Shown in pieces: positions 46,175 to 64,000 of a stretch of 64,000 bases of DNA. This stretch comes from Desulforamulus reducens MI-1 (GTDB lineage Bacteria > Bacillota > Desulfotomaculia > Desulfotomaculales > Desulfotomaculaceae), in contig NC_009253.1 of NCBI RefSeq assembly GCF_000016165.1, positions 1,212,332 through 1,276,331 on the forward strand. The letters are read 5' to 3'. Positions within the stretch are counted from its first letter, which is position 1. Each line of letters starts with the position of its first letter. Position numbers and translations under genes: made by a program. The notes under the pieces are model-generated. The model ran no database searches. It saw only the letters and a list, made by a program, of their open reading frames with translations, and was not told where the DNA came from.

Positions 46175-46251
46175 CGGGGCGTAGCTCAGTTTGGGAGAGC
46201 GCTACCTTGGGGTGGTAGAGGTCGCAGGTTCAACTCCTGTCGCTCCGACCA
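46175..46251 (+). tRNA. tRNA-Pro (anticodon GGG), CCA encoded
   Basis: A 77-base cloverleaf: acceptor CGGGGCG/CGCTCCG (one G-T pair), D arm with TAGCTCAG and GGGAGAGC, anticodon stem CTACC/GGTAG with loop TTGGGGT (anticodon GGG, reads CCC), T arm with GGTTCAACTCC, and genomic CCA. The mobile element begins right behind it, so its 3' end is the likely attachment site. Its codon matches the presumed specifier of the proBAC T-box. Confidence 0.95.
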
Positions 46252-58394: not shown

Positions 58395-58712
58395 GTGAGT
58401 TTTGAAAGCGTTATAAACGCCATGAACCAGCAGTCAAACGTGCTTAAAGAATTGGAAGAGTTACTTGCTCATAATGATAAGCAAAACAACCTGGGGCACA
58501 CGGTAAAGCTGGAAGACATCGAAAGGTTAAAAAGCTATGTAGCTAATATGAAGTTAGCTGTTAAAACGGCTACAGCCCTTGCCACGCATTATAAAAATGC
58601 CGGTAAAACGACCAATGCTGAAACAAAACAAGCACCACCAGCCGAACCTGCCGACTATTTATCGCGAAAGCCCGAGAGCAATAAAGAGCTTCTGGGAAAT
58701 GAAAGCCATTAG
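58395..58712 (+). CDS. Hypothetical phage protein, helical
   Basis: A 105-residue protein, GTG start behind CGGAGGGATATAG. The first 70 residues are helical and probably coil (NVLKELEELLAHNDKQNNLG, LEDIERLKSYVANMKLAVKT), the rest is a polar, Ala/Pro-rich tail. No family recognised. Its last 14 bases overlap the start of the PcfJ-like gene. Confidence 0.65.
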   Translation: MSFESVINAMNQQSNVLKELEELLAHNDKQNNLGHTVKLEDIERLKSYVANMKLAVKTATALATHYKNAGKTTNAETKQAPPAEPADYLSRKPESNKELLGNESH

Positions 58713-59583
58713 CAACCTTGACCTTATGGATGATGTGCTCACGCTGGTTAAACAAAAGCAGGACTTCATATCCGCCCTTGTAGCGACTTACTCTTTGCCG
58801 GATAAGCCAATCATAAAAAGGATTTTAGGCGCTAACCCGTTTGAGGCTAGTTTGTTATCAGAAGCAATGCAGCTCTGTAAAAATTACGATTATGCCATCC
58901 GGTTATATAAAAGCTTTAAGCTTTATAACCTACTGGGCTCTAATCGATACGGTTATGAATATACACCGGATTACGTGAACAGAGACGTACTGCAGTTTTT
59001 GAGGGATATGCTGCGGGTCTATGGTGAATCTGGAATAGTCCACATGATGGAAAACGCCAAGGAGATAAACCTGAAAGATTGCATTCGGCTATACCAGCAG
59101 CTAAAAGATGAAAACCAGCGGGCCATAAAAACCGAAAAAGTAAGGATAAGAGATTTGCACGATTGGATGTCCTACAGGCACAAGCTGCAAAATCATGAAA
59201 ATCTTAAATTTAACGTGCCTAACCATATTATCAGGCGGCTCTCAATGCAAAACGAAAAGCTTAAATTCTTTTTACCAAAGGAATCGATGGAGCTATTAAA
59301 GGCCGGTGTGGAGCTGCATAATTGCGTAGCTTCCTATAGCCGGGCCATGCAGGATAATTCAAAGTGGGTTGTCCTGGTAGCAAATGATAAAGGCAAACTG
59401 GTAGCGTGCTTGGAGGTACAAGGCAGGAGATTAATTCAGGCCAAAATCGATAAAAATAAACCGGTATCGAGTGACAATAAGTTAAATGCCGAGGTTATCT
59501 CCTGGGCCAAGGAAGCAAACCTTGAGATAAAAACCAACGACTTAAAGGTGCAGACTGAATCGGCTACTTCAGTAGCTGTTTAA
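58699..59583 (+). CDS. PcfJ-like protein
   Basis: A 294-residue protein. The C-terminal third carries the PcfJ-type signature: ELHNCVASYSRAMQDNSKW, VLVANDKGKLVACLEVQG, RRLIQAKIDKNKPVSSD. PcfJ domains occur on conjugative plasmids, phages and other mobile elements; function unknown. The N-terminal 180 residues are helical and not recognisable. ATG 58699 overlaps the preceding gene and has only a weak site (CTGGGAA), so an internal start at 58726 is possible. Confidence 0.75.
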   Translation: MKAISNLDLMDDVLTLVKQKQDFISALVATYSLPDKPIIKRILGANPFEASLLSEAMQLCKNYDYAIRLYKSFKLYNLLGSNRYGYEYTPDYVNRDVLQFLRDMLRVYGESGIVHMMENAKEINLKDCIRLYQQLKDENQRAIKTEKVRIRDLHDWMSYRHKLQNHENLKFNVPNHIIRRLSMQNEKLKFFLPKESMELLKAGVELHNCVASYSRAMQDNSKWVVLVANDKGKLVACLEVQGRRLIQAKIDKNKPVSSDNKLNAEVISWAKEANLEIKTNDLKVQTESATSVAV

Positions 59584-59605: not shown

Positions 59606-59762
59606 TTGAGAATAGCTGGAATGACAAAAGAAAGCACAGTAGACGGACCTGGTTTGCGTTTAGTTATACCTTCAAGGTTGCCCGCATAAATGCCCGGGGT
59701 GCCATAATCAGCATACCTGGGATCCTACGGGCGGAGAATGGTTGGTGAGCTATGAACAGTGA
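59606..59762 (+). pseudogene. nrdG: Truncated, frameshifted nrdG-like fragment
   Basis: TTG 59606 behind AGGTGA reads LRIAGMTKESTVDGPGLRLVI, the N-terminus of the anaerobic ribonucleotide reductase activase. One base then shifts the frame, and the adjoining frame continues QGCPHKCPGCHN (radical-SAM CxxxCxxC) and HTWDPTGGEWLVSYEQ, then stops. About 52 residues of the usual 150 or more are present; the rest is replaced by the primase gene, which starts at 59752 inside it. A decayed gene, or a phage minimal radical-SAM peptide if slippage restores the frame. Confidence 0.75.
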
Positions 59763-62208
59763 TCCTAACAAAAAAGTAAAACTAAAAATCAAGCATGACG
59801 GTAATATCTCCATTGCTGTTGGCCGCAGCCGGAAAGAGACAAATTGGAAAAACAAAGACATGCTTTGGTCTGCTATGGTAGATAGGCTCAGCCGGACTAA
59901 TCGAACCGGTGAGACCTTTGCCGAATATAAGAAGTTATCGAAAAGCCAGCAGGGGCAAATTAAAGATGTTGGCGGGTTTGTCGGTGGGACGCTTAAAAGT
60001 GGCCGACGCAAATCTGAGAACGTAGCCTGGCGGCATTTAATTACTCTGGATATAGATTACGCCAAGGGCGATTTTTGGGCATCCGTTACGGTAATACTGG
60101 GCTGTGCATGCGTGCTTTATTCCACGCATGCGCATTGCCCGGAGGCTCCAAGGCTGAGGTTGGTTATTCCGCTGAAGCGGCCAATAGCCCCGGACGAATA
60201 CCCGGCAGTGGCCCGACGCATTGCAGCAGACCTGGGGATTGACTTTTTCGACGATACTACTTATGACCCGGTCAGATTGATGTATTGGCCGTCAACGTCA
60301 GCAGATGGGGAATTCGTTTTTAAGTACTTAGATGAGCCCTGGCTCGATCCGGACGAGGTTTTAGCCCGCTATGAGGACTGGCGGGACCCGTCCTATTGGC
60401 CTGAATCATCGCGTGCTCAACAGGCCCGGCAAAAACTTGCAGACAGGCAAGGAGATCCGTTAGAGAAGCCCGGGGTGGTAGGTGCGTTTTGCCGTACCTA
60501 CTCAATCCCCGAGGCGATTGAAACGTTCTTAATCGATATCTATGGTCCTGCCGGTGAGGGCCGCTATACTTACCTTCCTGGTTCCACTACCGGTGGCTTG
60601 GTGCTATACGATGGCGATAAATTCGCTTTCAGCCACCACGGTACGGACCCGATAAGCGGCAGGCTGGTCAACTCCTTTGACCTGGTGCGGCTCCACAAAT
60701 ACGGTGACCAGGACGAAAGCGCGGAGCCTGGAACGCCAACAGTAAAGCTGCCGTCCTATCTTGCTATGACAGACTTCGCAATAGAGGACCCAAACGTTAA
60801 AAGCACAATGGGTAAGGACATCTTAGTAAGAGCCCAAGAAGACTTTGCCGACGATGATGATTGGACACAGCATCTGGAGTATACCAAGAAGAAAGAATTA
60901 AAAACATCTCTTAAAAATTTGGTGCTTATTCTACGCCATGACCCAAACCTTAAAGGCATTGCTTACAATGCCCACAAAGGGGCAATAACGCTGTTAGAAA
61001 AGGTTCCCTGGCGTAAGCCCGGGGATTGGAAAGGGCCGAACTGGTCAGACGATGATGATGCAGCGCTCCGGGTCTACCTGGAGAAGGTTTACGAAATCTG
61101 GACCCCGTCGAAGCTAAATGATGCTTTAACGGCGGTAAGCCATGAGCGGTCCTTCCACCCTATCCGGGATTACTTAAACGGGCTAGATGAATGGGACGGC
61201 ATCCCTCGCCTGGAGGAAGTATTGATTGACTACCTCGGGGCCGAGGACTCAGTTTATACCAGAGCCGTAACAAAGAAAACCTTTGTAGCTGCCGTGGCCC
61301 GGGTAATGAACCCAGGTTGCAAGTTTGACTATATGCTGGTCCTGATAGGCAAGCAAGGCCTGGGCAAAAGTACACTATTTACCCGCTTGGCCGGCAATTG
61401 GTTTAATGATTCACTTAGCATGTCCGACATGCGGGATAAAACTGCAGCCGAGAAGCTACAGGGTTATTGGATTTTGGAAATTGGGGAATTGGCCGGTTTT
61501 AAAAAGGCTGAAGTTGAAGTAGTTAAGTCATTCCTTAGCCGGCAAAAGGATATTTACAGGCCGTCGTATGGCCGCAGAACGATTGAGTATCCGCGCCAGT
61601 GTGTGATTGTCGGTAGCACTAACAATGACACCGGATTCCTCCGGGACTCCACCGGCAACCGGCGTTTTTGGCCGGTGAACGTGACAGGCGTGTCGACGGA
61701 TAGGGCACCCTGGGCCATGAATGATTACACAGTAGGTCAGATTTGGGCCGAGGCGCTGGCATGCTATAAAGCTGGCGAAACGCTGTACTTGGAAGGTAAA
61801 GCAGCTGAGGAAGCTTTCGAGCAGCAGAAACTTGCTATGGAAGCTGACGAGCGCCTGGGCATGGTCAAAGAATACCTGGATATGCTACTGCCGGAAAACT
61901 GGGAAGAAATGAGCCTAACTGAGCGCAGGACGTTTATCAACGGCGGTGATTTTGGGCATGGCCCTGAAGGAACAATGCAGCGCGATAAAATTTGCGTTGC
62001 CGAAATTTGGTGTGAACTGATGGGCAAAGAGTTAACCGGCATTAAAAGGTTTGAGATAGATGAAATACACGGATTGATGCGGCAGATTGACGGTTGGGAA
62101 AAGTACACCGGAAATAAGGACGGAAAAATGAAATTCAATTTATACGGAGTGCAAAGAGCTTATATAAGAAAAGATTCAGCGAAATTTTCAGAGACCAAAA
62201 ACGAATAA
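59752..62208 (+). CDS. VapE-type phage primase/helicase
   Basis: An 818-residue protein. The N-terminal part (about 60-230) resembles a primase/BT4734-like domain (WRHLITLDIDYAKGD; THAHCPEAPRLRLVIPLKRP). The C-terminal half (about 440-740) is a VapE/D5-like ATPase with P-loop GKQGLGKST (residues 533-541), LEIGELAGFKKAEVEVVKSF and VIVGSTNNDTGFLRDSTGNR-RFWPV. It would prime and unwind at the element's origin. ATG 59752 overlaps the nrdG fragment. The TTGCCGA array begins 8 bases after its stop. Confidence 0.92.
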   Translation: MNSDPNKKVKLKIKHDGNISIAVGRSRKETNWKNKDMLWSAMVDRLSRTNRTGETFAEYKKLSKSQQGQIKDVGGFVGGTLKSGRRKSENVAWRHLITLDIDYAKGDFWASVTVILGCACVLYSTHAHCPEAPRLRLVIPLKRPIAPDEYPAVARRIAADLGIDFFDDTTYDPVRLMYWPSTSADGEFVFKYLDEPWLDPDEVLARYEDWRDPSYWPESSRAQQARQKLADRQGDPLEKPGVVGAFCRTYSIPEAIETFLIDIYGPAGEGRYTYLPGSTTGGLVLYDGDKFAFSHHGTDPISGRLVNSFDLVRLHKYGDQDESAEPGTPTVKLPSYLAMTDFAIEDPNVKSTMGKDILVRAQEDFADDDDWTQHLEYTKKKELKTSLKNLVLILRHDPNLKGIAYNAHKGAITLLEKVPWRKPGDWKGPNWSDDDDAALRVYLEKVYEIWTPSKLNDALTAVSHERSFHPIRDYLNGLDEWDGIPRLEEVLIDYLGAEDSVYTRAVTKKTFVAAVARVMNPGCKFDYMLVLIGKQGLGKSTLFTRLAGNWFNDSLSMSDMRDKTAAEKLQGYWILEIGELAGFKKAEVEVVKSFLSRQKDIYRPSYGRRTIEYPRQCVIVGSTNNDTGFLRDSTGNRRFWPVNVTGVSTDRAPWAMNDYTVGQIWAEALACYKAGETLYLEGKAAEEAFEQQKLAMEADERLGMVKEYLDMLLPENWEEMSLTERRTFINGGDFGHGPEGTMQRDKICVAEIWCELMGKELTGIKRFEIDEIHGLMRQIDGWEKYTGNKDGKMKFNLYGVQRAYIRKDSAKFSETKNE

Positions 62209-62510
62209 AAACCGGTTGCCGATGTGGTTGCCGATAGGCTGTTTGGTTGCCGATACAATTGAACGATTGCCGAGGTTGCCGATTGCCGAGGTTGCCGAGC
62301 GTAGGCTGAATTATAGAAAAAGTTGCCGACGGTTGCCGATATCGGCAACCACTTGAAGCCTAGAGCACCAAGCGTTAGCGGGAAAGTTGCCGAGGTTGCC
62401 GATAGTCTATAGAGTATTACTATTTATAGAATATATAGGTGTACCCGTACACGTACACACACACGTATAGGAGTTTTAAAACTATCGGCAACTCGGCAAC
62501 TCGGCAACCG
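62209..62510. repeat. TTGCCGA iteron array, probable replication origin
   Basis: Eleven TTGCCGA in direct orientation start at 62216, 62228, 62247, 62267, 62276, 62283, 62292, 62323, 62333, 62387 and 62396; four inverted copies start at 62342, 62485, 62493 and 62501. Most are preceded by G or GG. A direct pair at 62386-62405 mirrors an inverted pair at 62483-62501 around an AT-rich stretch (62403-62445) and a run of GTACACGTACACACACACG. No ORF survives here. Iterons plus AT-rich DNA beside the primase fit an origin. Confidence 0.75.
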
Positions 62511-62607: not shown

Positions 62608-62817
62608 ATGGAACAGTGCGAAGAATGGCTGTCTAGCAGATTAAAAAACGGGAAATTGGTACTTTGCGATGATATAAGAGCCGAGGCAAAAGAACAAGGT
62701 TTTACCAAAAAACAGCTGAAAGAAGCTAGAAAAAAGCTTAAAGTTAAAACGTTTCACCAATTTGATGAGCATGGCGGTACATCGAATTGGTTTTGGAAAA
62801 TAGGTACCAGTTCGTGA
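62608..62817 (+). CDS. Small winged-helix-like phage protein
   Basis: A 69-residue protein, ATG behind GGGAGGTAAAAATCACAA. The pattern GKLVLCDDIRAEAKEQGFTK then KQLKEARKKLKVKTFHQ and a final Trp/Phe-rich strand resembles the small winged-helix unit found at the C-terminus of phage and plasmid primases and replication proteins. It lies just behind the TTGCCGA array, so it may bind there. Family assignment is tentative. Its stop overlaps the next GTG start. Confidence 0.6.
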   Translation: MEQCEEWLSSRLKNGKLVLCDDIRAEAKEQGFTKKQLKEARKKLKVKTFHQFDEHGGTSNWFWKIGTSS

Positions 62818-63095
62818 ATGAAGCACAGATTGAACGCAAATTTAAGCGCGAAGTTGAAAGGCGAGGAGGCAAAGCCTGGAAGTTTACCTCTCCAGGTATG
62901 TCAGGAGTGCCGGACCGGATTGTTCTTCTTCCCGGAGGTAGAAGCATATTCGTCGAGCTTAAAGCTCCTGGTGAAGAACCAAGGCCGCTACAAGTAAAAA
63001 GGGCAAAAGAATTAACTGAACTTGGCTTTGAAGTTTATTGCATAGATTCTTTTGCGGCTATTAACAAATTTGTTATCGAGGTATTTGGAAAATGA
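62814..63095 (+). CDS. VRR-NUC domain nuclease
   Basis: A 93-residue minimal VRR-NUC protein of the PD-(D/E)XK superfamily: KFTSPGMSGVPDRIVLLPGG (Asp) and SIFVELKAPGEEPRPLQ (Glu-x-Lys), followed by RAKELTELGFEVYCIDS. Stand-alone phage VRR-NUC proteins act as structure-specific nucleases, often beside SNF2-type helicases as here. GTG 62814 overlaps the previous stop by 3 bases; the next gene overlaps its own stop (ATGA). Confidence 0.9.
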   Translation: MNEAQIERKFKREVERRGGKAWKFTSPGMSGVPDRIVLLPGGRSIFVELKAPGEEPRPLQVKRAKELTELGFEVYCIDSFAAINKFVIEVFGK

Positions 63096-64000
63096 TTTTT
63101 AAGCCACATGAATATCAGGGTTATGCAATTAAGAAAATCATAGAGCTGCCGGCAGTTGGACTTTTCATGGATATGGGTCTTGGGAAGACAGCCTGCGCCC
63201 TAACTGCAACCGCAGAGCTAATGCATAACTACTTTGAGGTTTCAAAGGTTTTAGTTGTAGCACCGCTGAGGGTGGCGGAGGACACCTGGAGCCGTGAAAC
63301 CGCGAAGTGGGACCACTTGAATTATTTAAGAATTGCTAAGGTGCTAGGTCCTGAAAAAGATCGCATAGCGGCTCTTAATTCCAAAGCTGATATTTATGTG
63401 ATAAACCGCGAGAATGTTAAATGGCTGGTTGAGCACTTCGGTAAAAAATGGCCCTTCGATATGGTGATTATAGACGAGCTTTCAAGTTTCAAATCATCTA
63501 AGGCTAAAAGGTTCAGGGCGCTGCGAAAAGTAAGGCCGCTAATAAAAAGAATCATCGGGTTGACAGGAACGCCGGCACCGAACGGACTGCTTGACTTATG
63601 GCCGCAGGTTTATCTGTTGGACCTCGGGGAGCGCCTGGGAAAGACAATCACCGGATATCGGGAAAGATATTTTAAACCGGGTAAAAGAAACCGGTCAGTT
63701 ATATTCACCTGGGACCCAAAGCCGGACGCTGAAGCGGCTATACACAACAAGCTTTCAGACCTTTGCGTGAGCATGAGCGCAGCGGATTGGCTGCAGCTGC
63801 CAGAACGAATCGATAATATCATCCCGGTTAATTTATCACTTAAAGCCTGGGGCCAATATGAACAGCTAGAACGGGATCTGCTGTTACCTTTAGCTGACGG
63901 GGATGTGGTTGCCAATACCGCAGCAGTGCTGGCTAATAAGCTGCTGCAAATGGCAAACGGGGCCGTATACGATGAGAACGGAATGGCCCAGGAATTCCAC
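63092..64000 (+). CDS. SNF2/DEAD-like phage helicase, 3' truncated by window edge
   Basis: The frame is open from ATG 63092 to the last base, 303 residues visible. It starts MIFKPHEYQGYAIKKII, with Walker A DMGLGKTA (near residue 27), VLVVAPLRVAEDTW, Walker B-like MVIIDELSSFKSSKA, and LTGTPAPNGLLDLWPQVYLLD. This is the partner helicase commonly found behind VRR-NUC in Firmicute phages. The C-terminal RecA-like lobe lies outside the window. It differs clearly from the SNF2-type gene at 55137. Confidence 0.9.
   Translation, partial: MIFKPHEYQGYAIKKIIELPAVGLFMDMGLGKTACALTATAELMHNYFEVSKVLVVAPLRVAEDTWSRETAKWDHLNYLRIAKVLGPEKDRIAALNSKADIYVINRENVKWLVEHFGKKWPFDMVIIDELSSFKSSKAKRFRALRKVRPLIKRIIGLTGTPAPNGLLDLWPQVYLLDLGERLGKTITGYRERYFKPGKRNRSVIFTWDPKPDAEAAIHNKLSDLCVSMSAADWLQLPERIDNIIPVNLSLKAWGQYEQLERDLLLPLADGDVVANTAAVLANKLLQMANGAVYDENGMAQEFH

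Follow-up and report, generated by a model that had tools for sequence, protein, structure and literature searches.

Genes and repeats at the locus

The window, a stretch of 64,000 nucleotides from Desulforamulus reducens MI-1, is part of a single contig of 3,608,104 bp. At position 46203 it contains the 3' part of a tRNA-Pro (ggg) gene, and 49 bp of this part occur again as a direct repeat 49.65 kb downstream, in sequence beyond the window. From this follows that the repeat array described here belongs to a prophage roughly 50 kb long, of which the two 49-bp repeats are likely the attachment sites. The early genes of the prophage encode, in order, a DUF2800 exonuclease, a single-stranded DNA-binding protein, a family A DNA polymerase, a helicase and VapE, and then, on the far side of the array, a VRR-NUC-like nuclease and an SNF2 helicase (Table 1). 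The nuclease also has a match to the Pfam VRR_NUC family (E 0.0017), which falls short of the family's cut-off.

Table 1. Features at and around the repeat array (positions in the window)
Feature	Position	Strand	Basis
VapE-type primase-helicase, 818 aa, proposed initiator	59752..62208	+	PF05272 E 5e-81; phrog_256 E 0
VapE C-terminal winged-helix domain (predicted), about residues 746-808, proposed iteron reader	61987..62175	+	AlphaFold, 7pds Z 12.0
VapE wing and last strand, residues 781-808, switching with the iteron unit	62092..62175	+	
Left iteron cluster, TTGCCGA, nine + copies and one - copy	62216..62348	.	
Palindrome GGTTGCCGATATCGGCAACC within the left cluster, formed by TTGCCGA copies	62333(+)/62342(-)		
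Tandem iteron pair facing the spacer, starts 62387/62396, 9 bp start to start	62387..62402	+	
AT-rich spacer, 82 bp, 68% AT, proposed unwinding element	62403..62484	.	
Alternating purine-pyrimidine tract, 24 nt, inside the spacer	62446..62469	.	
Three inverted iteron copies at array end, starts 62485/62493/62501	62485..62507	-	
69-aa winged-helix-like ORF	62608..62817	+	AlphaFold
VRR-NUC-like nuclease, conserved right neighbour of array	62814..63095	+	phrog_93 E 7e-30
SNF2/DEAD-type helicase, continues past window end	63092..64000	+	PF00176 E 2e-19

The array begins 7 bp past the vapE stop and consists of 15 exact copies of TTGCCGA in the 292 bp from 62216 to 62507, 11 on the plus and four on the minus strand, with irregular start-to-start distances of 7-89 bp. 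The original prediction had these copies and their strands right, but gave their spacing as 7 to 58 bases, which is too narrow. Its statement that the array is neither a CRISPR nor a tandem satellite agrees with the irregular spacing and with the presence of copies on both strands, and the inverted duplication that it described is found as the tandem pair at 62387/62396 set against the inverted copies at 62485/62493/62501 across the AT-rich spacer. The neighbours that it named, a VapE-type gene and a small winged-helix-like gene, are borne out by the Pfam match in Table 1 and by a fold prediction for the 69-residue product.

Neither shuffled nor simulated sequence approaches this density of copies. 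The window as a whole has 23 copies of TTGCCGA, when 7.3 +/- 2.8 are expected and the maximum in 100 shuffles is 13; its densest 300 bp have 15, a stretch in which 40 Markov simulations never give more than 2. When the count is extended over the whole genome (3.6 Mb), as had been proposed, GGTTGCCGA is found 40 times, nine of them inside the array, which is the sole cluster among the places listed. An Rfam search of the array region gave zero matches, and promoter-like matches there are no more frequent than by chance. The minus strand of the region has three terminator-like sites where 0.8 are expected, and two of them consist of iteron copies. The GC skew has no inflection at the array; it is positive over nearly the entire prophage and so is uninformative as an origin marker.

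The N-terminus of VapE matches DNA primase families. Among solved structures its best sequence match is 7pds, a complex of PriRep1 with double-stranded DNA (E 2e-109, profile positions 363-798), and the protein in this structure has been identified as SaPI5 PriRep1 (PMC10516667). AlphaFold predicts a winged helix for the C-terminus of VapE (residues 690-818, mean pLDDT 87.7), with a helix at about 766-778, a strand at 782-784, the wing at 785-791 and further strands at 792-795 and 799-806; the best fold match of this model is 7pds again, so that PriRep1 is the top match in both sequence and structure. For the 69-residue ORF the prediction, made from a single sequence (pLDDT 85), has the order H-H-H-E-E and is winged-helix-like. 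An iteron plasmid origin of the RepA/Pi type, at which a plasmid Rep initiator recruits the DnaA/DnaB of the host, was considered and rejected, since no plasmid-Rep Pfam match was obtained among the window genes scanned and the only conserved candidate initiator is the primase-helicase.

The array behind VapE genes of other phages

Relatives of VapE were gathered from viral contigs and whole genomes, which gave 180 distinct loci. VRR-NUC lies at most 700 bp from the vapE stop in 173 of them, with a median gap of 259 bp. The array score exceeds 30 in 105 of the 180 loci, among which there are 52 distinct canonical 8-mers, while 28 loci have weak arrays only (score at most 20). In 79 of 105 distinct gaps the repeats beat all shuffles. 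What is conserved behind VapE genes is, as the original prediction had proposed to check, the array and not its exact sequence.

The layout is conserved together with the place. Of 96 strong arrays, 88 close on the right with plus copies, a spacer and minus copies, in this order. The spacer has a median length of 92 bp and, in strong arrays, an AT fraction of 0.71, compared with 0.64 region-wide; the commonest distance between neighbouring copies is 9 bp, and the last copy lies a median of 24 bp ahead of VRR-NUC. In 82 spacers the alternating purine-pyrimidine run is 19 nt long on average; first-order simulations give 9.2, and a stretch of equal length on the left side of the spacers gives 6.0. 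Between the tract at 62446-62469 and those of the 82 relatives the character is kept and the sequence is not. An easily unwound or Z-forming element is a possible reading of this tract.

The unit GTTGCCGA is found in the window, in its relatives L032-L034 and in some other phages. Different units occupy the same place elsewhere, namely GTAACCGA in L031, GTATCCAT in L037 and TGTGTCCAT in L039, and further loci have TGTAAACA, TGTTACCA, TGTCAACA, TGTCTACA, TGGAAACA, GGAACAAG and others. One fixed GTNNNC frame for every unit was tried; it suits many loci, but not all, and free unit discovery was used instead. The arrangement is also present in the named phages LWP01 of Listeria, Javan630 of Streptococcus, phiCDKH02 of Clostridioides, 2638A and phiSauS-IPLA35 of Staphylococcus, and StAB of Corynebacterium, and the listed features of these phages include no origin annotation. 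A non-coding origin near a helicase gene, a possible parallel, is known from another Firmicutes phage, Sfi21 of Streptococcus thermophilus.

In L032-L034 the vapE frame enters the array, so that iteron copies code for the end of the protein (for example PVAEVAEVAEVADRI, L034 8410-8475). The gap of L032 (8436-8703) holds a degenerate array with four of 13 copies exact, which is possibly decaying or of relaxed specificity.

Variation of the unit with the VapE wing

There are three groups of loci in which nearly identical VapE proteins are followed by arrays with different units; the flanking genes in these sets are mostly 92-100% identical. To exemplify, consider the C. difficile-type prophages, which occur in three unit states, TGTTACCA, TGTCAACA and TGTCTACA. 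In L137, L140 and L144 identity is about 99.7% for the VapE proteins over residues 30-690, 99.6% or more for the vapE DNA between -400 and -120, and 98.5-100% for VRR-NUC. Between these flanks, identity drops to 75-80% in the final 120 bases of vapE and to 67-81% in the gap, and the unit has changed through the whole of each array, the far inverted pair included. The protein differences are confined to residues 781-808, plus positions 644 and 649, and the helix before the wing is unchanged. From the predicted positions of strands and wing it follows that the residues which switch with the unit fall in the wing and the last strand. The array and VapE C-terminus of L140 are those of the C. difficile phage phiCDKH02. 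The switch is repeated, with more scattered differences, in L038/L039 (GTATCCAT to TGTGTCCAT; right flank DNA 93-99% identical) and in L113/L114 (GTTGCCGA to GTTACCGA; 85-92%). In all, unit and wing switch together, and wing and array, being contiguous, have apparently been exchanged as one block.

For pairs at least 93% identical over VapE residues 30-735, the mean wing identity is 0.965 (minimum 0.5) when the unit is the same (156 pairs) and 0.569 (range 0.50-0.71) when it differs (105 pairs), where the pairs are not independent and the discordant ones come from the three groups only, most of them being of C. difficile type. When all pairs at least 75% identical are taken, residues 781-808 form the best window for predicting whether two loci have the same unit (AUC 0.848; the best window below residue 736 reaches 0.796). 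Wherever two of these wings are more than 85% identical, the units are the same. At deep divergence, C-terminal windows are among the best-ranked in covariation without being unique, and certain distant wings have one unit in common. Among 25 loci with GGxxAC arrays, 23 have K or R at residue 800, and among 33 with GTxxCC arrays not one does; these counts ignore phylogeny, and the relation of this residue to the unit class is a lead rather than a code. Listeria phage LWP01 and L140, the VapE proteins of which are 52% identical, both have the unit TGTCAACA and R800.

The proposed origin, its alternatives and known systems

The array is very probably the replication origin of the prophage, read by the C-terminal winged helix of VapE and organized in the manner of the rep-ori of phage-inducible chromosomal islands (PICIs). 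A probable iteron origin, with VapE or the 69-residue protein as binder, had been suggested in the original prediction, and the reading with VapE is now the best supported one, since the array is kept behind VapE genes and its unit tracks the wing. We infer binding of VapE to the iterons, assembly of a double ring, melting and replication, in the following way. VapE protomers would attach to the TTGCCGA iterons by their C-terminal winged-helix domain, the wing of which would recognize the variable core of the unit. With iterons in direct orientation to one side of the AT-rich spacer and in inverted orientation to the other, two helicase assemblies would face each other head to head, and ATP-driven remodelling would melt this spacer with its purine-pyrimidine tract. 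Each ring would then unwind outward, and the primase domain would prime for the family A polymerase of the phage. The diversity of units plausibly keeps initiator and origin private to each phage.

We lean, by a narrow margin, toward a more general proposal: that VapE-type phages have one origin architecture, in which the iteron is an exchangeable password read by the wing. A switch would then be the exchange of a cassette that comprises roughly the final 100 bases of vapE and the array of about 300 bp. The resulting replication systems would be private and would exclude one another, and they would provide natural data on the recognition code between wing and DNA.

The joint switching of unit and wing could also reflect mere neighbourhood within one recombination tract, with the array read by something else, and the contiguity of the two, their joint replacement and the sharp borders toward conserved flanks are as this would require. 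The explanation is improbable, because the differences in the C. difficile-type set end at the wing, although the rest of this domain is adjacent too, because residue 800 tracks the unit class at many loci (again in counts that ignore phylogeny), and because LWP01 and L140 agree in unit and residue 800 in spite of their divergence. More doubtful still is that the array is an operator or a centromere-like partition site, bound by VapE or another phage protein for transcription of the VRR-NUC and SNF2 genes or for DNA segregation, while replication starts elsewhere. Operators and parS-like sites also have clusters of short binding sites, and the array lies upstream of VRR-NUC with its last copy close to the start of that gene; but the number of copies, their arrangement in two blocks that face each other and an AT-rich spacer containing a purine-pyrimidine tract are all features of origins, promoter-like matches are at chance level, and the unit follows an initiator helicase and not a repressor.

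Of the two candidate binders named in the original prediction, VapE gains from the switching of the unit with its wing, and the 69-residue protein falls away. Its gene adjoins the array and its predicted fold is winged-helix-like, but a role for it as iteron-binding initiator or loader is, judged from comparison of the loci, highly unlikely. In the relatives whose sequence was read directly, L032-L034 with their TTGCCGA array among them, no such ORF lies between VapE and VRR-NUC; the protein has zero matches in 50,697 phage records and in nine other sampled genomes of the family; and units differ among phages that do not have it. It may be a passenger or a regulator. That the array is a packaging site, a satellite repeat or CRISPR-like can hardly be maintained: it is a short sequence repeated in a phage, but its spacing is irregular, it uses both strands, it lies in the replication module and it has no Rfam match.

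Rep helicases of SaPIs recognize, by their C-terminal domain, iterons directly 3' of their own gene, apparently as two hexamers (PMC7581432), and PICI origins have an AT-rich region, thought to melt, between two sets of iterons (PMC6092414). The rep-ori of SaPIbov1, SaPI1, EfCIV583 and E. coli PICIs (PMC6092414, PMC7581432) is like the window in that the iterons lie immediately 3' of the gene of the initiator helicase, in two sets around an AT-rich region (here 62216-62402 and 62485-62507, on either side of the 82-bp spacer). VapE is a Rep homologue with a helicase core and a predicted C-terminal winged helix, which may be the counterpart of the C-terminal recognition domain of Rep; the joint switching of unit and wing is an indirect sign of this. 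Unlike in SaPIs and PICIs, the arrays are found in phages, many from Firmicutes and one from Corynebacterium, as part of replication modules that seem complete and encode a DNA polymerase of their own. The carrier in the window is not a phage-inducible satellite but a prophage, about 50 kb long, which encodes a polymerase and is bounded by the 49-bp tRNA-Pro repeats; from this follows that the replicon type is probably that of PICIs while the element itself is not a PICI.

The original prediction knew of no described origin with this unit. This may hold for TTGCCGA itself, but not for the organization, which is known from SaPIs and PICIs (PMC6092414, PMC7581432). The new elements appear to be its presence in many phages and the joint switching of wing and iteron; no description of arrays in VapE phages, of the range of units or of the purine-pyrimidine tract was found in the open-access papers searched. 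The published view that the organization of PICI origins occurs in no other known bacterial replicon (PMC6092414) is weakened by the phage arrays, and this suggests that satellites and phages have one replicon type in common. The assignment would locate, from sequence alone, the origin of replication for temperate phages that form a very large group, and several of them infect well-studied Firmicutes. In the nearly isogenic natural sets a change of iteron goes with a change of about ten residues in the wing. These sets make a protein-DNA recognition code testable, and also the reasons for origin switching, which may be that a phage is incompatible with prophages or satellites already resident, or that it evades nucleases that target origins.

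Other systems have parts of this arrangement. Cch2 of SCCmec, with AAGTG repeats, is like VapE a helicase of the D5/primase-C-term type with repeats downstream of its gene, and its isolated C-terminal domain binds direct repeats; it differs in that there are three iterons only and that the carrier is not a phage (PMC7581432). In the PLE of Vibrio cholerae the DNA-binding domain of RepA and the iterons of ori covary and swap as modules, swaps have shown that the pairing is cognate, and selective pressure comes from a phage nuclease which is directed at the origin and mimics RepA (PMC8263062). The exchange of wing and array in one cassette resembles these modules by analogy only, since RepA has an N-terminal RepA_N domain, no predicted helicase or primase, and iterons of about 30 bp (PMC8263062). 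The alpha protein of phage P4 is like VapE a primase-helicase fusion (PMC7145576) with a winged-helix origin-binding domain (as cited in PMC10516667). The P4 domain is not among the structural matches returned for the VapE C-terminus, an absence that does not count against kinship.

Two further features of the prophage may be mentioned. Directly upstream of vapE lies a gene for a PcfJ-like protein (PF14284, E 3e-12; 58579-59583), an unusual neighbour. Beyond the window, the same prophage carries a diversity-generating retroelement (L346 4114-7396) with an RVT_1 reverse transcriptase (E 6e-21) and an upstream gene, the 3' end of which resembles the template repeat, with 11 of 16 mismatches at template adenines.
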